Source: Desulfoferula mesophila (GTDB lineage: Bacteria > Desulfobacterota > Desulfarculia > Desulfarculales > Desulfarculaceae). Taken from it: DNA of 64,000 nt. Below, in pieces: positions 14,410 to 41,237 of the stretch. The stretch spans positions 3,487,501 to 3,551,500 of the forward strand of contig NZ_AP028679.1 in the NCBI RefSeq assembly GCF_037076455.1. The letters run 5' to 3'. Both the position numbers and the translations under genes were made by a program. Under the pieces are notes generated by a model. It was not told the DNA's origin. It was given only the letters and a program-made list of their open reading frames with translations, and ran no database searches. Numbering within the stretch: position 1 is the first letter of the stretch; each line of letters opens with the position of its first letter.

Positions 14410-15186
14410 TTAGTTGGTTTTGGGCTTTGCCTGGGATCGTCTTTTGGCTTGGCGGAGCCGGTAGCTTTCTCCATTGGCCTCGATGATGTGGCACCTATGG
14501 GTCAGTCTGTCCAGCAGTGCACCGGTGAGTCTTTCGGAGCCGAAGACCTCCGTCCATTGCTGGAAAGGGAGATTGGTGGTGATCATGAGGCTTTGTTGTT
14601 CATATGCCCTACCCACCACCTCGAATAGCATTTGAGCGCCTATCTTGGAGAAGGGCACATAGCCCAGTTCATCGATGACCAGCAGGTGTAGGCGCTGGAG
14701 CTGTTTCTGCAGGCGTTGCAGACGTCTTTCCTCGCGGCATTCCATGAGCTCTGTGACCAGGGCGGTGGCGCTGTAGAATTTCACCTTGCTTCCCTGGGCG
14801 CAGGCCGCAAAGGCCATGGCGCTGGCCAGGTGGGTCTTGCCGGTGCCGGAGTTTCCGATCAGGAGCACGTTTTCCTTTTTGGCGATGTACTCGCCCCTCA
14901 TCAGCTCCCTGACCAGCTGCTGATTGATGGAGGGCTGTGCCTTGAAATCAAAGGTGTCCATGGTCTTGATCACCGGAAAGGCGGCTTGCTTGATGCGCCT
15001 TTCGGCTGCCCGCTTCTCGCGGTCCAGAAGCTCCCGCTCGGTCAGGCGCAGCAGGTAGGTCATGTAATCGGAGCGGTCTTGGCTGCAGACCTTGGCCATG
15101 GCCGCGTATTCCCGGAGAATGGTGGGCAGCTTCAGCTTTTTGAGGTGGTACTCCAAGAGCACGGTGGGTTTGTCCTGGTCCTTCAT
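14410..15186 (-). CDS. istB: IS21 helper ATPase IstB
   Basis: AAA+ ATPase of 258 residues that assists IstA in target selection. Walker A GNSGTGKT is at residues 111-118, Walker B LLVIDELGY at about 168-176, then a sensor region MITTNLPFQQW and Arg-rich C-terminus. Its ATG overlaps the istA stop (ATGA), the usual coupled arrangement. The translation is identical to the copies at 25.6 and 35.3 kb. Confidence 0.97.
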   Translation of the reverse strand: MKDQDKPTVLLEYHLKKLKLPTILREYAAMAKVCSQDRSDYMTYLLRLTERELLDREKRAAERRIKQAAFPVIKTMDTFDFKAQPSINQQLVRELMRGEYIAKKENVLLIGNSGTGKTHLASAMAFAACAQGSKVKFYSATALVTELMECREERRLQRLQKQLQRLHLLVIDELGYVPFSKIGAQMLFEVVGRAYEQQSLMITTNLPFQQWTEVFGSERLTGALLDRLTHRCHIIEANGESYRLRQAKRRSQAKPKTN

Positions 15187-16745
15187 GACAGCGCCCCTCC
15201 CTGCGCGAGGAGGGAGTCATAGACTGTGATATCGGGCCCGGCCACGCTCACTCGGCCCAGGTGCTCACGACCGTCCAGCAGGAAGGTGGCCGCGGGCCCT
15301 GATGATGGCGGCTCCAGCAGGTGGACAATGGCCTCCGGGGCATAGGCTCCCGCGTACAATGCCTGCTCCACCGCCCGCTTCAGTCTGGCCATGGAGTGGT
15401 CCTCCAGCAAACGTAGGACCTTTATGTATTTACGGGTGCCCTGGCCAGGCATGTCTTCCCCGGCCACCAGCCGCCGCCTCAAGACCTCAAAGCACTCAGA
15501 CAGATCTAGGTCAGCCAGGGGGCGGGCGTGGTCCAGGGAGCCAGGCTTGCGCTCCAGCAAGGGCAGATAATGCCGGTAGTCGAAAAACACCCCTTCCTTG
15601 CCCCAGGATCGGGAGTGGCGGGCCACCACCACGTCATGGTGGCAGAGCACCACCCGATCCACATAGCCCTTGGCCACAATTTCATGGTGGGCACAAGCCA
15701 CCGGCACCGAGTAGTCATTGTCGTCGAAGCGGACCAGGGACAATGAATTGGCCCGGGTAGGCTGTTTGCGGCAGGCATCGAAGCGGGAGGGAGGCAGGGG
15801 GACAAAGGCTGTCTGGTCTTCCTGCAAAACCTCGGCCTTGCTACCGCCCTTGCCACGCAAACGGCGCTTCATGTCGTCGCGGCACTGCCTTAAAAGCATG
15901 GCATTGAGCTCGGCCAGGTCCTTCACCTGGGGCACTGGCACCAAAAAATTCTGCCGGGCGTACTTGACCACCCCTTCCACCACGCCCTTCTCGTTTGGAC
16001 GCCGCACCCGACAAAAATGCTCCCGAAAAAGGTAATGGCTCTGCAGCTTGAGAAAACCATCGGTCAGCTTGCGCTCATGAGGCCCTATGATCTTGGAAAC
16101 CAGGACCTTGCTATTGTCGTAACTGATCCGGTGGGGCACCCCACCGAAAAACTCGAACGCCCTGGCATGCCCTTCCCAGTAGCTCTCGCTGCACTCCTTG
16201 TCGAAGGCCGCCACGAAAAAGGCATCGGAGTACGGCAAGGCCATGATAAAAAGCGCTATCTTGCGAAGCTCCCCGGAAACCTTGGCCAGGGCATAGCCAA
16301 AGTCCACCTGCGCCTCGCCGGGACGATGGACCAGGGGCATGTACACCTCCTGGCTCACGCGCTTGATTGCGCGCACCGCCTCCTTTACCTGGGTGTACTT
16401 GCCCTGATAACCCGCCTCCTTGATGCGGTGATATATGCGCGTGGCCGTGTGCCTTTGCTTCTTGGGAACCTTTTTGTCCTCTTTTATGATCCGGGCGATC
16501 AACTCAAGGTAGGGGCCAAGCTTGGGCTTGGCTCGGGGGGTGCTGAGCCGGTATCCGGGAGGCTCGGGAAAATTCTGAATCTTTTGCAGGGTATCCCAAT
16601 GGATGCCCTCTCTACGCATTAACTCGCGCTTGCTCGCCTGGCCATCGCGCAACTCAAGTCTGATCCGGGCCCATTGATCCATGTCCGTGTACACCCCTTC
16701 CGCTCCTCCAGAGAGTCCTGGCCTGGAAGCCACCATGGCCTCCAT
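15183..16745 (-). CDS. istA: IS21 transposase IstA
   Basis: 520-residue transposase: N-terminal HTH region (DGQASKRELMRREGIHWDTL), rve integrase core with D148 (QVDFG), D210 (YDNSKV) and the Glu in NEKGVVEG, and a C-terminal beta-rich domain. ATG 16743-16745 is 89 bp inside the element end. No interruption is seen, so this copy should be functional. It is coupled to istB by a 4-bp overlap. Confidence 0.97.
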   Translation of the reverse strand: MEAMVASRPGLSGGAEGVYTDMDQWARIRLELRDGQASKRELMRREGIHWDTLQKIQNFPEPPGYRLSTPRAKPKLGPYLELIARIIKEDKKVPKKQRHTATRIYHRIKEAGYQGKYTQVKEAVRAIKRVSQEVYMPLVHRPGEAQVDFGYALAKVSGELRKIALFIMALPYSDAFFVAAFDKECSESYWEGHARAFEFFGGVPHRISYDNSKVLVSKIIGPHERKLTDGFLKLQSHYLFREHFCRVRRPNEKGVVEGVVKYARQNFLVPVPQVKDLAELNAMLLRQCRDDMKRRLRGKGGSKAEVLQEDQTAFVPLPPSRFDACRKQPTRANSLSLVRFDDNDYSVPVACAHHEIVAKGYVDRVVLCHHDVVVARHSRSWGKEGVFFDYRHYLPLLERKPGSLDHARPLADLDLSECFEVLRRRLVAGEDMPGQGTRKYIKVLRLLEDHSMARLKRAVEQALYAGAYAPEAIVHLLEPPSSGPAATFLLDGREHLGRVSVAGPDITVYDSLLAQGGALS

Positions 16746-24071: not shown

Positions 24072-25634
24072 ATGGAGGCCATGGTGGCTTCCAGGCCAGG
24101 ACTCTCTGGAGGAGCGGAAGGGGTGTACACGGACATGGATCAATGGGCCCGGATCAGACTTGAGTTGCGCGATGGCCAGGCGAGCAAGCGCGAGTTAATG
24201 CGTAGAGAGGGCATCCATTGGGATACCCTGCAAAAGATTCAGAATTTTCCCGAGCCTCCCGGATACCGGCTCAGCACCCCCCGAGCCAAGCCCAAGCTTG
24301 GCCCCTACCTTGAGTTGATCGCCCGGATCATAAAAGAGGACAAAAAGGTTCCCAAGAAGCAAAGGCACACGGCCACGCGCATATATCACCGCATCAAGGA
24401 GGCGGGTTATCAGGGCAAGTACACCCAGGTAAAGGAGGCGGTGCGCGCAATCAAGCGCGTGAGCCAGGAGGTGTACATGCCCCTGGTCCATCGTCCCGGC
24501 GAGGCGCAGGTGGACTTTGGCTATGCCCTGGCCAAGGTTTCCGGGGAGCTTCGCAAGATAGCGCTTTTTATCATGGCCTTGCCGTACTCCGATGCCTTTT
24601 TCGTGGCGGCCTTCGACAAGGAGTGCAGCGAGAGCTACTGGGAAGGGCATGCCAGGGCGTTCGAGTTTTTCGGTGGGGTGCCCCACCGGATCAGTTACGA
24701 CAATAGCAAGGTCCTGGTTTCCAAGATCATAGGGCCTCATGAGCGCAAGCTGACCGATGGTTTTCTCAAGCTGCAGAGCCATTACCTTTTTCGGGAGCAT
24801 TTTTGTCGGGTGCGGCGTCCAAACGAGAAGGGCGTGGTGGAAGGGGTGGTCAAGTACGCCCGGCAGAATTTTTTGGTGCCAGTGCCCCAGGTGAAGGACC
24901 TGGCCGAGCTCAATGCCATGCTTTTAAGGCAGTGCCGCGACGACATGAAGCGCCGTTTGCGTGGCAAGGGCGGTAGCAAGGCCGAGGTTTTGCAGGAAGA
25001 CCAGACAGCCTTTGTCCCCCTGCCTCCCTCCCGCTTCGATGCCTGCCGCAAACAGCCTACCCGGGCCAATTCATTGTCCCTGGTCCGCTTCGACGACAAT
25101 GACTACTCGGTGCCGGTGGCTTGTGCCCACCATGAAATTGTGGCCAAGGGCTATGTGGATCGGGTGGTGCTCTGCCACCATGACGTGGTGGTGGCCCGCC
25201 ACTCCCGATCCTGGGGCAAGGAAGGGGTGTTTTTCGACTACCGGCATTATCTGCCCTTGCTGGAGCGCAAGCCTGGCTCCCTGGACCACGCCCGCCCCCT
25301 GGCTGACCTAGATCTGTCTGAGTGCTTTGAGGTCTTGAGGCGGCGGCTGGTGGCCGGGGAAGACATGCCTGGCCAGGGCACCCGTAAATACATAAAGGTC
25401 CTACGTTTGCTGGAGGACCACTCCATGGCCAGACTGAAGCGGGCGGTGGAGCAGGCATTGTACGCGGGAGCCTATGCCCCGGAGGCCATTGTCCACCTGC
25501 TGGAGCCGCCATCATCAGGGCCCGCGGCCACCTTCCTGCTGGACGGTCGTGAGCACCTGGGCCGAGTGAGCGTGGCCGGGCCCGATATCACAGTCTATGA
25601 CTCCCTCCTCGCGCAGGGAGGGGCGCTGTCATGA
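24072..25634 (+). CDS. istA: IS21 transposase IstA
   Basis: Same 520-residue product as the copies at 15.2 and 36.1 kb, with the DDE residues D148, D210 and the Glu of NEKGVVEG. It reads rightward and overlaps istB by 4 bp. Confidence 0.97.
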   Translation: MEAMVASRPGLSGGAEGVYTDMDQWARIRLELRDGQASKRELMRREGIHWDTLQKIQNFPEPPGYRLSTPRAKPKLGPYLELIARIIKEDKKVPKKQRHTATRIYHRIKEAGYQGKYTQVKEAVRAIKRVSQEVYMPLVHRPGEAQVDFGYALAKVSGELRKIALFIMALPYSDAFFVAAFDKECSESYWEGHARAFEFFGGVPHRISYDNSKVLVSKIIGPHERKLTDGFLKLQSHYLFREHFCRVRRPNEKGVVEGVVKYARQNFLVPVPQVKDLAELNAMLLRQCRDDMKRRLRGKGGSKAEVLQEDQTAFVPLPPSRFDACRKQPTRANSLSLVRFDDNDYSVPVACAHHEIVAKGYVDRVVLCHHDVVVARHSRSWGKEGVFFDYRHYLPLLERKPGSLDHARPLADLDLSECFEVLRRRLVAGEDMPGQGTRKYIKVLRLLEDHSMARLKRAVEQALYAGAYAPEAIVHLLEPPSSGPAATFLLDGREHLGRVSVAGPDITVYDSLLAQGGALS

Positions 25635-26407
25635 AGGACCAGGACAAACCCACCGTGCTCTTGGAGTACCACCTCAAAAAGCTGAAGCTGCCCACCATTC
25701 TCCGGGAATACGCGGCCATGGCCAAGGTCTGCAGCCAAGACCGCTCCGATTACATGACCTACCTGCTGCGCCTGACCGAGCGGGAGCTTCTGGACCGCGA
25801 GAAGCGGGCAGCCGAAAGGCGCATCAAGCAAGCCGCCTTTCCGGTGATCAAGACCATGGACACCTTTGATTTCAAGGCACAGCCCTCCATCAATCAGCAG
25901 TTGGTCAGGGAGCTGATGAGGGGCGAGTACATCGCCAAAAAGGAAAACGTGCTCCTGATCGGAAACTCCGGCACCGGCAAGACCCACCTGGCCAGCGCCA
26001 TGGCCTTTGCGGCCTGCGCCCAGGGAAGCAAGGTGAAATTCTACAGCGCCACCGCCCTGGTCACAGAGCTCATGGAATGCCGCGAGGAAAGACGTCTGCA
26101 ACGCCTGCAGAAACAGCTCCAGCGCCTACACCTGCTGGTCATCGATGAACTGGGCTATGTGCCCTTCTCCAAGATAGGCGCTCAAATGCTATTCGAGGTG
26201 GTGGGTAGGGCATATGAACAACAAAGCCTCATGATCACCACCAATCTCCCTTTCCAGCAATGGACGGAGGTCTTCGGCTCCGAAAGACTCACCGGTGCAC
26301 TGCTGGACAGACTGACCCATAGGTGCCACATCATCGAGGCCAATGGAGAAAGCTACCGGCTCCGCCAAGCCAAAAGACGATCCCAGGCAAAGCCCAAAAC
26401 CAACTAA
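25631..26407 (+). CDS. istB: IS21 helper ATPase IstB
   Basis: 258-residue AAA+ ATPase identical in translation to the other copies; Walker A GNSGTGKT and Walker B LLVIDELGY are intact. It starts in the istA stop (ATGA). Confidence 0.97.
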   Translation: MKDQDKPTVLLEYHLKKLKLPTILREYAAMAKVCSQDRSDYMTYLLRLTERELLDREKRAAERRIKQAAFPVIKTMDTFDFKAQPSINQQLVRELMRGEYIAKKENVLLIGNSGTGKTHLASAMAFAACAQGSKVKFYSATALVTELMECREERRLQRLQKQLQRLHLLVIDELGYVPFSKIGAQMLFEVVGRAYEQQSLMITTNLPFQQWTEVFGSERLTGALLDRLTHRCHIIEANGESYRLRQAKRRSQAKPKTN

Positions 26408-35301: not shown

Positions 35302-36078
35302 TTAGTTGGTTTTGGGCTTTGCCTGGGATCGTCTTTTGGCTTGGCGGAGCCGGTAGCTTTCTCCATTGGCCTCGATGATGTGGCACCTATGGGTCAGTCT
35401 GTCCAGCAGTGCACCGGTGAGTCTTTCGGAGCCGAAGACCTCCGTCCATTGCTGGAAAGGGAGATTGGTGGTGATCATGAGGCTTTGTTGTTCATATGCC
35501 CTACCCACCACCTCGAATAGCATTTGAGCGCCTATCTTGGAGAAGGGCACATAGCCCAGTTCATCGATGACCAGCAGGTGTAGGCGCTGGAGCTGTTTCT
35601 GCAGGCGTTGCAGACGTCTTTCCTCGCGGCATTCCATGAGCTCTGTGACCAGGGCGGTGGCGCTGTAGAATTTCACCTTGCTTCCCTGGGCGCAGGCCGC
35701 AAAGGCCATGGCGCTGGCCAGGTGGGTCTTGCCGGTGCCGGAGTTTCCGATCAGGAGCACGTTTTCCTTTTTGGCGATGTACTCGCCCCTCATCAGCTCC
35801 CTGACCAGCTGCTGATTGATGGAGGGCTGTGCCTTGAAATCAAAGGTGTCCATGGTCTTGATCACCGGAAAGGCGGCTTGCTTGATGCGCCTTTCGGCTG
35901 CCCGCTTCTCGCGGTCCAGAAGCTCCCGCTCGGTCAGGCGCAGCAGGTAGGTCATGTAATCGGAGCGGTCTTGGCTGCAGACCTTGGCCATGGCCGCGTA
36001 TTCCCGGAGAATGGTGGGCAGCTTCAGCTTTTTGAGGTGGTACTCCAAGAGCACGGTGGGTTTGTCCTGGTCCTTCAT
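35302..36078 (-). CDS. istB: IS21 helper ATPase IstB
   Basis: 258-residue AAA+ ATPase, same translation as the other copies, Walker A and B intact; starts within the istA stop. Confidence 0.97.
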   Translation of the reverse strand: MKDQDKPTVLLEYHLKKLKLPTILREYAAMAKVCSQDRSDYMTYLLRLTERELLDREKRAAERRIKQAAFPVIKTMDTFDFKAQPSINQQLVRELMRGEYIAKKENVLLIGNSGTGKTHLASAMAFAACAQGSKVKFYSATALVTELMECREERRLQRLQKQLQRLHLLVIDELGYVPFSKIGAQMLFEVVGRAYEQQSLMITTNLPFQQWTEVFGSERLTGALLDRLTHRCHIIEANGESYRLRQAKRRSQAKPKTN

Positions 36079-37637
36079 GACAGCGCCCCTCCCTGCGCGA
36101 GGAGGGAGTCATAGACTGTGATATCGGGCCCGGCCACGCTCACTCGGCCCAGGTGCTCACGACCGTCCAGCAGGAAGGTGGCCGCGGGCCCTGATGATGG
36201 CGGCTCCAGCAGGTGGACAATGGCCTCCGGGGCATAGGCTCCCGCGTACAATGCCTGCTCCACCGCCCGCTTCAGTCTGGCCATGGAGTGGTCCTCCAGC
36301 AAACGTAGGACCTTTATGTATTTACGGGTGCCCTGGCCAGGCATGTCTTCCCCGGCCACCAGCCGCCGCCTCAAGACCTCAAAGCACTCAGACAGATCTA
36401 GGTCAGCCAGGGGGCGGGCGTGGTCCAGGGAGCCAGGCTTGCGCTCCAGCAAGGGCAGATAATGCCGGTAGTCGAAAAACACCCCTTCCTTGCCCCAGGA
36501 TCGGGAGTGGCGGGCCACCACCACGTCATGGTGGCAGAGCACCACCCGATCCACATAGCCCTTGGCCACAATTTCATGGTGGGCACAAGCCACCGGCACC
36601 GAGTAGTCATTGTCGTCGAAGCGGACCAGGGACAATGAATTGGCCCGGGTAGGCTGTTTGCGGCAGGCATCGAAGCGGGAGGGAGGCAGGGGGACAAAGG
36701 CTGTCTGGTCTTCCTGCAAAACCTCGGCCTTGCTACCGCCCTTGCCACGCAAACGGCGCTTCATGTCGTCGCGGCACTGCCTTAAAAGCATGGCATTGAG
36801 CTCGGCCAGGTCCTTCACCTGGGGCACTGGCACCAAAAAATTCTGCCGGGCGTACTTGACCACCCCTTCCACCACGCCCTTCTCGTTTGGACGCCGCACC
36901 CGACAAAAATGCTCCCGAAAAAGGTAATGGCTCTGCAGCTTGAGAAAACCATCGGTCAGCTTGCGCTCATGAGGCCCTATGATCTTGGAAACCAGGACCT
37001 TGCTATTGTCGTAACTGATCCGGTGGGGCACCCCACCGAAAAACTCGAACGCCCTGGCATGCCCTTCCCAGTAGCTCTCGCTGCACTCCTTGTCGAAGGC
37101 CGCCACGAAAAAGGCATCGGAGTACGGCAAGGCCATGATAAAAAGCGCTATCTTGCGAAGCTCCCCGGAAACCTTGGCCAGGGCATAGCCAAAGTCCACC
37201 TGCGCCTCGCCGGGACGATGGACCAGGGGCATGTACACCTCCTGGCTCACGCGCTTGATTGCGCGCACCGCCTCCTTTACCTGGGTGTACTTGCCCTGAT
37301 AACCCGCCTCCTTGATGCGGTGATATATGCGCGTGGCCGTGTGCCTTTGCTTCTTGGGAACCTTTTTGTCCTCTTTTATGATCCGGGCGATCAACTCAAG
37401 GTAGGGGCCAAGCTTGGGCTTGGCTCGGGGGGTGCTGAGCCGGTATCCGGGAGGCTCGGGAAAATTCTGAATCTTTTGCAGGGTATCCCAATGGATGCCC
37501 TCTCTACGCATTAACTCGCGCTTGCTCGCCTGGCCATCGCGCAACTCAAGTCTGATCCGGGCCCATTGATCCATGTCCGTGTACACCCCTTCCGCTCCTC
37601 CAGAGAGTCCTGGCCTGGAAGCCACCATGGCCTCCAT
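36075..37637 (-). CDS. istA: IS21 transposase IstA
   Basis: 520-residue DDE transposase, same translation as copies 2 and 3. ATG 37635-37637 lies 89 bp inside the element end. Confidence 0.97.
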   Translation of the reverse strand: MEAMVASRPGLSGGAEGVYTDMDQWARIRLELRDGQASKRELMRREGIHWDTLQKIQNFPEPPGYRLSTPRAKPKLGPYLELIARIIKEDKKVPKKQRHTATRIYHRIKEAGYQGKYTQVKEAVRAIKRVSQEVYMPLVHRPGEAQVDFGYALAKVSGELRKIALFIMALPYSDAFFVAAFDKECSESYWEGHARAFEFFGGVPHRISYDNSKVLVSKIIGPHERKLTDGFLKLQSHYLFREHFCRVRRPNEKGVVEGVVKYARQNFLVPVPQVKDLAELNAMLLRQCRDDMKRRLRGKGGSKAEVLQEDQTAFVPLPPSRFDACRKQPTRANSLSLVRFDDNDYSVPVACAHHEIVAKGYVDRVVLCHHDVVVARHSRSWGKEGVFFDYRHYLPLLERKPGSLDHARPLADLDLSECFEVLRRRLVAGEDMPGQGTRKYIKVLRLLEDHSMARLKRAVEQALYAGAYAPEAIVHLLEPPSSGPAATFLLDGREHLGRVSVAGPDITVYDSLLAQGGALS

Positions 37638-39237: not shown

Positions 39238-40461
39238 TCACTTGCTCAGCCAGTTGTCCAGCGAGCAGATATCTTCGCGCAACGCATAGCGCACCAGCTC
39301 CACCATGTTGGCCAGGTTCAGCTTGTCCATCAGGTTGTGCCGGTAGGCCTTCACGGTCTTGGCCCCCAGGCCCAGCCTCTGGGCGATATCCTCCACGCCC
39401 ACGCCCTCGGCCAATAGTTGCAGGATTTCGCGCTCGCGGGGGCTCAGGCTGCTGGCCGGGGGGCCGGCCGGCGCGCCTTCGATGCGCCCCACAAAGCCCT
39501 TCACCACCAGGTCGGTGATTTCGGGGGCGAGGTAGGTGAGCCCCTGGCCCACCAAACGAATCACGGACAGCATTTCCCGGGCGGTGCAGGTTTTTATCAG
39601 GTAGCCGTGGGCCCCGGCCTCCAAGACCCCCGCCACGAAGCGCGGGTCGCTGTGCATGGAAAGCACCAACACCCGGCTGGAGCCTCCGGCCTGCACGATC
39701 TGGCGGGTGGCCTCGATGCCGTTCAGGTCGGGCATGGAGATGTCCATGAGCACCACGTCCGGCTGATGCAACCGGGTCATCAGCACCGCCTGGCGGCCGT
39801 CGGAGGCCTCGGCCACCACCTCCAGGTCCGGTTCGTCTTCGACCAGGCTTCTGACACCGCTGCGAAACACCTGGTGATCGTCCACCAGCAATACGCGCGT
39901 GGGGCGGCCGCCGGGTACCTGCCCCCTGACTTCGTCCCCGCCGGGCGTCTCATCGGTGAACACCCGGAACACCCGGACCGGCTCGGCGATGTTTTTCACC
40001 CGGTGCAGGCCATGGTCCTCGAAACTCAGATTGAGCTTGTTCTTCACCTGCTCGCAAATGCTGGCCGACACGCACACCCCGCCGGGGTCGGCCAGGCCCT
40101 CGATGCGGGCCGCCAGGTTAACCCCGTCGCCATATAGGGTCCCCTGTTCGGCCACCACGTCGCCCAGGTTCACTCCAATGCGAAACTCCATGCGCCGCCG
40201 GCGGCTCAGCTTCTGGTTCTCGATCTCCAGCCGCTGTTGGATGGCCACGGCGCAACACACGGCATTGACCGCGCTGGCAAACTCGACCAAGAGGTTGTCG
40301 CCGGGCGCATCGACTACCCTTCCCTGCTGCTGCCCGACGAGTTGGGTGATTATGCGGCGGTAGGCGGTGAGGGTGGCTATGGTGGCGGCTTCGTCGTCGG
40401 CCATCAGGCGGCTGAAGCCCTTGACGTCGGCGGAAAGTATGGCGGCCAGTTTGCGGGGCAT
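39238..40461 (-). CDS. Class III nucleotide cyclase-receiver-LuxR HTH fusion protein
   Basis: 407 residues with three domains. Residues 1-170 are a class III cyclase: metal Asp12 (SADVKGF) and Asp55 (GDNLLVEF), and transition-state Asn115/Arg119 in GDGVNLAARIE. Residues about 188-305 are a receiver: VLLVDDHQVFR, phospho-acceptor Asp240 in VVLMDISMPD, Lys290. Residues 335-400 are a LuxR-type HTH (SLSPREREILQLLAEG, then DIAQRLGLGAKTVKAYRHNL). The receiver-HTH half is a NarL/FixJ response regulator. Joined in one frame, the protein would link phosphorylation, cyclic nucleotide synthesis and DNA binding. No kinase gene is adjacent. Confidence 0.92.
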   Translation of the reverse strand: MPRKLAAILSADVKGFSRLMADDEAATIATLTAYRRIITQLVGQQQGRVVDAPGDNLLVEFASAVNAVCCAVAIQQRLEIENQKLSRRRRMEFRIGVNLGDVVAEQGTLYGDGVNLAARIEGLADPGGVCVSASICEQVKNKLNLSFEDHGLHRVKNIAEPVRVFRVFTDETPGGDEVRGQVPGGRPTRVLLVDDHQVFRSGVRSLVEDEPDLEVVAEASDGRQAVLMTRLHQPDVVLMDISMPDLNGIEATRQIVQAGGSSRVLVLSMHSDPRFVAGVLEAGAHGYLIKTCTAREMLSVIRLVGQGLTYLAPEITDLVVKGFVGRIEGAPAGPPASSLSPREREILQLLAEGVGVEDIAQRLGLGAKTVKAYRHNLMDKLNLANMVELVRYALREDICSLDNWLSK

Positions 40462-40763
40462 GATCTTAGCGTCCCCTGGACACGGTAATCATATAAAACC
40501 CCGAGGCCGCGTTGGCCCATCAGGCGGGAAAATATGCTCAGGTGTCGGGCAGGCGGCAGCGGGATCACCAATCCCCCCACATACTAAAATAGCACGTAAC
40601 CTAGTCGGTTTTAAGGAAAAATCGTGCGACCCCCCGGATGGCCGCTTGGGCAGGCCATCCCCGTGCGCGCCACCGCGGTCATGCGGGAGCCACGGGGCGG
40701 TGGGCGCTTTGCGCCGGCGCAGCGCCCACTACCGCAAGGCTATCGGCGAGGGCTCTATGCGCT
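40462..40763. other. Non-coding stretch (302 bp)
   Basis: Upstream of the cyclase fusion gene and downstream of the GNAT gene. No gene or clear hairpin is seen; it must contain the fusion gene's promoter, but no confident -35/-10 pair is visible. Confidence 0.4.
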
Positions 40764-41237
40764 TCAGGCGGCCAATTCCAGGCAGCAGGCCGCGCTATAC
40801 CGGGGCGCATCGTTGGTGCGGGGGAAGCGCAGGCTTAATTTTCTGTACAGATTGAGGGCCCCGCTGTTGTCGTTGCGCACTTCCAAAACGACCCTTTTTA
40901 TGCCCCGCTGCCTCAGATAGTCCAGGGCCAAGCCGGTGAGGGCGCTACCCAACCCCTGCCTCTGATAGGCGGGCAGGATGAAGACGAGATACTCGGCCTC
41001 CCCGCGCCGCCGGTCCACTATGGCCGCCGCATGGCCCACCACGCGGTGCCCCTGGCGCAGGACAAAATTCCAACTCACCCCCATGATCGCCTCCACCCAG
41101 GTGTTGCGGGCGTAGTCGGCCACCGGGGGCATGCCCTGCACGCTACCTTTGGGCTCGAAGGCGTCGTACATCCTTTGCACCGCCCAACAGGCCTCCATGC
41201 CACAGGGATCAATCCGTAATCCAAAACCCAACCGCAT
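40764..41237 (-). CDS. GNAT-family N-acetyltransferase (157 aa)
   Basis: Acetyl-CoA binding motif A is FILPAYQRQGLGSALTGLAL (Q/RxxGxG/A), preceded by GHAAAIVDRRRGEAEYLVF and followed by VVLEVRNDNSGALNLYRKL (motif B). Size and order are those of small GNATs that acetylate amines or protein N-termini; the substrate is unknown. ATG 41237 has GGGAGGTG close upstream. It stands alone. Confidence 0.9.
   Translation of the reverse strand: MRLGFGLRIDPCGMEACWAVQRMYDAFEPKGSVQGMPPVADYARNTWVEAIMGVSWNFVLRQGHRVVGHAAAIVDRRRGEAEYLVFILPAYQRQGLGSALTGLALDYLRQRGIKRVVLEVRNDNSGALNLYRKLSLRFPRTNDAPRYSAACCLELAA

Follow-up and report, generated by a model that had tools for sequence, protein, structure and literature searches.

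Class III nucleotide cyclases act as head-to-tail dimers, and NarL-type response regulators dimerise upon phosphorylation. Single proteins carrying both a class III cyclase homology domain (CHD) and a LuxR-type helix-turn-helix (HTH) are represented by the mycobacterial Rv0386 group. A survey of actinobacterial LuxR proteins found CHD+LuxR proteins to be confined, within Actinobacteria, to Mycobacterium, and Rv0386 was reported to bind its substrate by an alternative mechanism (PMC3466318). Among other class III cyclases, some PycC enzymes use other residues at the base-contact face (PMC11224242). No report of a CHD, a receiver (REC), and an HTH in this order was found in the open literature searched, which is weak evidence as standard reviews of response-regulator outputs lay outside its scope. 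Here we analysed such a protein, encoded in a 64,000-nucleotide stretch of the Desulfoferula mesophila genome (NZ_AP028679.1, positions 3,487,501 to 3,551,500; hereafter, the window). Its features are listed in Table 1.

Table 1 Coordinates, within the window, of the CHD-REC-HTH gene, its domains and key residues, and upstream features.
Feature	Position	Strand	Basis
CHD-REC-HTH protein, 407 aa	39238..40461	-	uninterrupted single ORF, ATG to stop
Class III cyclase homology domain, residues 3-170	39952..40455	-	PF00211; 3mr7 match; AlphaFold2 model
Metal-binding Asp12 (predicted)	40426..40428	-	invariant in 88 related domains and in alignment A3
Asp51, replacing purine-specifying Lys	40309..40311	-	Asp also in orthologue
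Metal-binding Asp55 (predicted)	40297..40299	-	invariant in 88 related domains and in alignment A3
Thr108, replacing purine-specifying Asp	40138..40140	-	Ala in orthologue
Asn115 to Arg119, transition-state Asn/Arg pair (predicted)	40105..40119	-	invariant in 88 related domains and in alignment A3
Cyclase-receiver linker, residues 171-187	39901..39951	-	alignment with orthologue; low pLDDT
NarL-type receiver, residues 188-303	39553..39900	-	PF00072; invariant residues; pLDDT mostly >90
Phospho-acceptor Asp240 (predicted)	39742-39744	-	invariant among 35 related regulators
Receiver Lys290	39592-39594	-	invariant among 35 related regulators
LuxR/GerE HTH, residues 335-400	39262..39459	-	PF00196; alignment
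Candidate own promoter TTAAAA-17 nt-TATTTT, extended -10 TGn	40586..40614	-	upstream alignment
GNAT acetyltransferase gene, upstream, same strand as the fusion	40764..41237	-	PF00583

The initial annotation had read a cyclase, a receiver, and a LuxR HTH, in that order, in one frame. The Pfam search bore this out, as Guanylate_cyc (PF00211; residues 7-156, E = 1.5e-10), Response_reg (PF00072; residues 190-301, E = 1.3e-27), and GerE (PF00196; residues 337-393, E = 3.1e-19) all scored over the curated cut-offs. The occurrence of this three-domain architecture in one frame is far beyond chance. The start codon is fixed by the orthologue described below, in which an in-frame stop immediately precedes the ATG. 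Since the cyclase begins at residue 3, the protein has no N-terminal input domain. In the full-length structure model, pLDDT was mostly over 90 in the receiver, and the cyclase part, for which the alignment was shallow, was unfolded (pLDDT about 25-70). Therefore, no interdomain arrangement is readable from this model.

A protein search of 60 genomes, including that of the window, returned one other full-length match, which belongs to the same genus (G007:C61; 82% identity). An independent scan of species genomes, which reaches only sequences sharing short exact peptides with the query, led to the same orthologue contig (L038; 81%). The orthologue has the same three domains in the same order, and D12, D55, N115, R119, D240, and K290 are kept in both proteins. 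With an overall dS of about 0.8, simple Nei-Gojobori estimates of dN/dS were 0.12 for the cyclase, 0.12 for the receiver, and 0.22 for the HTH; that for the 17-codon linker was about 1.3, from few sites. The two linkers share 29% identity and differ by a 5-residue indel, and pLDDT in the linker region, at the end of the AlphaFold2 cyclase model, was under 50. These values indicate that purifying selection acts on each of the three domains and that the linker between cyclase and receiver drifts. An assembly fusion of two genes, which the initial annotation had raised as a way in which its reading could be mistaken, or a pseudogene would have the rare architecture as its sole support. However, a second genome, assembled independently, has the same frame and junction (81-82% identity), and there the intact full-length orthologue has its own, different flanking genes; the frame is also free of stops and under purifying selection. 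An assembly fusion was therefore rejected, and an artefact or pseudogene is virtually inconceivable.

Of the eight genomes of the genus that were examined, two encode the CHD-REC-HTH protein. No further full-length match was obtained in the searches of its class (63 genomes), its own phylum (395 genomes), the phylum of a Bradyrhizobium genome (398 genomes) and the class of that genome (115 genomes), the phylum of a Chloroflexi genome (151 genomes), or fifteen genomes with related domains, these sets overlapping in part. The two 400-genome searches scored no more than four candidates per genome, and those of the Bradyrhizobium and Chloroflexi phyla ran without a positive control. Plasmid records contained no match covering 80% of the query. 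The domain order is thus as unusual as had been proposed: the architecture is very rare, and searches that sampled genomes to a limited depth do not support calling it unique.

The solved structure nearest to the cyclase by sequence was 3mr7 (E = 2.3e-38). Modelled alone, the domain gave a pLDDT of 93 and a pTM of 0.88, with TM scores of about 0.9 against 3mr7 and of 0.83-0.87 against most chains of Ma1120 and Rv1900c. The fold of PF00211 is thus combined with the residues of a class III nucleotide cyclase: the two metal-binding Asp (Asp12 and Asp55) and the transition-state pair (Asn115 and Arg119), all noted initially, are present and invariant in 88 related domains. Degeneration of the catalytic residues, also raised as possible counter-evidence, was not seen at any of these metal and transition-state positions. 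The cyclase shows 53-65% identity with a subfamily recognisable by the signature GRVVDxPGDN. In the fetched loci, 77 of 96 cyclase matches were N-terminal and followed by a C-terminal extension of at least 150 aa; by eye, the extensions were mostly TolB/TPR-like, and some were hydrolase, AAA-type, or transmembrane parts. Therefore, the cyclase-first order is usual in this subfamily, and the novelty lies in the receiver-HTH behind it. In one locus (L049 7806-9275), a histidine kinase gene is immediately followed by one for a REC-CHD-TolB-like protein. The genome of the window has seven class III cyclase genes (L001-L007), the other six of which are of other types, and nine matches to cNMP-binding domains, which are possible receptors.

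The residues that specify the purine base differ from the canonical Lys/Asp pair, a point absent from the initial annotation. Of 61 close relatives, 56 have Asp at position 51 and most have Arg at position 108, and in the wider set only 4 of 88 related domains have the canonical pair; 3mr7 and Ma1120 carry Lys at the equivalent of position 51. With Asp/Thr here and Asp/Ala in the orthologue, the protein lacks the defining pair of purine-specific class III adenylyl cyclases, and its product is not callable as cAMP or cGMP. Because the chemistry residues are invariant, cyclase activity is likely, with no substrate nameable from sequence, and no experimentally established substrate of the GRVVDxPGDN subfamily was found in the literature searched. 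That the protein is a transcription factor which, once phosphorylated and bound to DNA, makes a cyclic nucleotide distinct from both cAMP and cGMP, so that a single two-component input would drive a promoter and a non-canonical second messenger at once, appears quite improbable.

PycC of the Pycsar system likewise has a class III fold and base-contact residues differing from the purine pair. However, the base-contact residue sets of the PycC clades (PMC11224242) are not reproduced in the fusion's cyclase, and the PycC profile matches were weak (26.8 and 24 bits; PADLOC E = 7.6e-7), so the likeness serves as a lead only. No Pycsar effector was found among the immediate neighbours (GNAT, DUF389, and acyl-CoA ligase genes; no PADLOC match). 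With weak profile matches and no effector gene adjacent, Pycsar membership is not supported.

Alternatively, the cyclase domain might serve to bind nucleotide or to dimerise, and thereby adjust how the receiver-HTH binds DNA, which would make it a sensing input yielding no second messenger. Such a role would accord with the replacement of Lys/Asp by Asp51/Thr108, with the variation of position 108 (Ala in the orthologue), and with the placement of the domain ahead of the regulator, a possible site for an input. However, a domain that only binds would be expected to relax at metal or transition-state positions, whereas these are invariant throughout the subfamily (88 of 88) and the domain has a dN/dS of 0.12. 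We regard this reading as unlikely.

In the receiver, Asp194/Asp195, Asp240, Ser268 (the S/T position), Tyr287, and Lys290 were all present, and Asp195, Asp240, Tyr287, and Lys290 were invariant among 35 related regulators; the initial assignment of Asp240 and Lys290 thus held. With an acidic pocket, phospho-Asp, S/T, Tyr, and Lys followed by a C-terminal GerE HTH, this half has the sequence attributes of NarL/FixJ regulators. Its PDB matches included VraR (E = 3e-35) and NarL (E = 1.4e-33), and the NCBIfam UvrY/SirA/GacA profile matched with E = 3.1e-53, below the equivalog cut-off. A tree of 59 receiver-HTH sequences nested it within a clade made up of ten rows of regulators from the host family, with support of 100/99, the bootstrap being not fully settled. 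The relatives in this clade are stand-alone regulators, the copy at G000:C1:696460 (62% identity) among them, and several directly adjoin a PAS-HisKA_3 kinase gene. As judged by this phylogeny, the receiver-HTH half is shown to have arisen from the lineage's own kinase-regulator operon. Compared with their relatives, the fused proteins share altered residues in the receiver (Ser201 and Thr291) and the HTH recognition helix (Lys371, Ala372, and His375). This helix reads KTVKAYRHN, and KTIKAHRHN in the orthologue, where relatives usually have KTVETHRRN. These alterations may reflect changed partner and DNA specificity.

No kinase gene is adjacent to the fusion, and no dedicated orphan kinase was found in its own genome. 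The nearest candidate is the kinase of the paralogue (G000:C1:694800-696443), which may no longer recognise the receiver because the latter departs from the paralogues at positions 199, 201, and 291; other matches to this kinase in the genome are adjoined by their own regulators. Both the absence of an adjacent kinase gene and the placement of these other matches beside their own regulators would fit a phosphorylation switch that is no longer used, with the receiver structural and the regulator controlled by cyclase dimerisation or nucleotide level. However, receivers losing phosphorylation usually lose acidic-pocket residues, whereas here all phosphorylation residues are intact and the receiver has a dN/dS of 0.12, which makes a silent receiver very unlikely.

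An own promoter is possible: the candidate precedes the ATG by about 125 nt and is conserved in the orthologue as TGAAAA-17 nt-TATTTT, whereas a stricter consensus scan of the upstream region reported no promoter. No RNA families were found around the gene. The GNAT gene also lies upstream of the orthologue (69% identity), where a gene on the other strand intervenes, and an operon with it is unsupported. Homologues of the GNAT gene in two other genomes (L166 5929-9671 and L167 186-3730) are located between acetate-CoA ligase and Hist_deacetyl genes, an arrangement resembling acetylation control of acetyl-CoA synthetase. Upstream of the orthologue is a set of CHASE2-cyclase, FecR, and TPR genes (L146 1719-6782), and similar clusters are known from Campylobacterota (PMC9239204). 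The window additionally contains an apparent IS21-type transposase/helper pair in four copies (2-1222, 14413-16745, 24072-26404, and 35302-37637), with near-identical opening sequences by eye, one of them cut by the window edge.

Taken together, the protein is a confirmed, selected, and rare combination of two ordinary parts. The initial annotation had taken the domain order to imply that phosphorylation or DNA binding gates cyclic nucleotide synthesis at a promoter, or that the cyclase product acts back on transcription; both would be hypotheses at this stage, as would cyclic nucleotide synthesis itself given the missing Lys/Asp pair. We tentatively favour, at somewhat less than even confidence, the view that it is an orphan response regulator in which phosphorylation-driven dimerisation would control DNA binding and also pair the cyclase domains. 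A class III cyclase domain from a widespread subfamily with exchangeable C-terminal modules would have been added N-terminally to an orphan NarL/FixJ-type regulator. Asp240 would receive its phosphoryl group from the HisKA_3 kinase of the paralogue or from some other donor, and the phosphorylated receiver-HTH part would dimerise on its DNA site. The same dimerisation would hold the two tethered cyclases at a higher local concentration, and they could then form the head-to-tail homodimer needed for catalysis, so that a single input would yield a transcriptional and a nucleotide-signal output. In this scheme, we infer the catalytic activity, the dimerisation coupling, and the identity of the kinase. 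The low identity of the linker and its 5-residue indel argue against a rigid helical relay and fit coupling by proximity. Because the cyclase comes first, no input domain precedes it, and the linker length changes freely, dimer-driven pairing would be the simplest coupling.

The same drifting linker with its indel, and the ready exchange of C-terminal modules in the cyclase subfamily, could also point to two independent activities, namely an ungated cyclase that is constitutively active and attached to a transcription factor; the fusion would then set only expression or location. However, both species have retained the fusion across considerable divergence (dS about 0.8), and a promoter location offers a diffusible product little gain. 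Independence of the two halves is thus rather doubtful. If the dimerisation-driven coupling applies, two-component signalling, transcription, and nucleotide signalling would be naturally connected in a single chain. The protein would also offer a simple system for asking if dimerisation through a receiver or on DNA is able to switch a class III cyclase, and it draws attention to the large GRVVDxPGDN subfamily with Asp in place of the purine-specifying Lys.

The fusion shares the receiver, the GerE HTH, and all phosphorylation residues with NarL/FixJ regulators such as NarL, VraR, and GacA/UvrY; it differs from them in its added N-terminal cyclase, the absence of an adjacent kinase, and its altered recognition helix and receiver positions. 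With N-terminal class III cyclases (CHD-TolB/TPR proteins and the CHD-alpha/beta hydrolase 3mr7), it shares the position of the cyclase and, by identity and signature, the subfamily. However, a receiver-HTH takes the place of their TolB/TPR, hydrolase, AAA-type, or transmembrane parts, and 3mr7 itself keeps the canonical Lys/Asp pair, unlike the fusion. REC-CHD proteins, such as that of L049, also join a receiver to a cyclase of this subfamily, but in the reverse order, with a kinase gene upstream and without an HTH. The mycobacterial proteins of the Rv0386 group likewise combine a cyclase and a LuxR HTH in one protein; no receiver is listed for them (PMC3466318), whereas the fusion has one and therefore stands outside this group.
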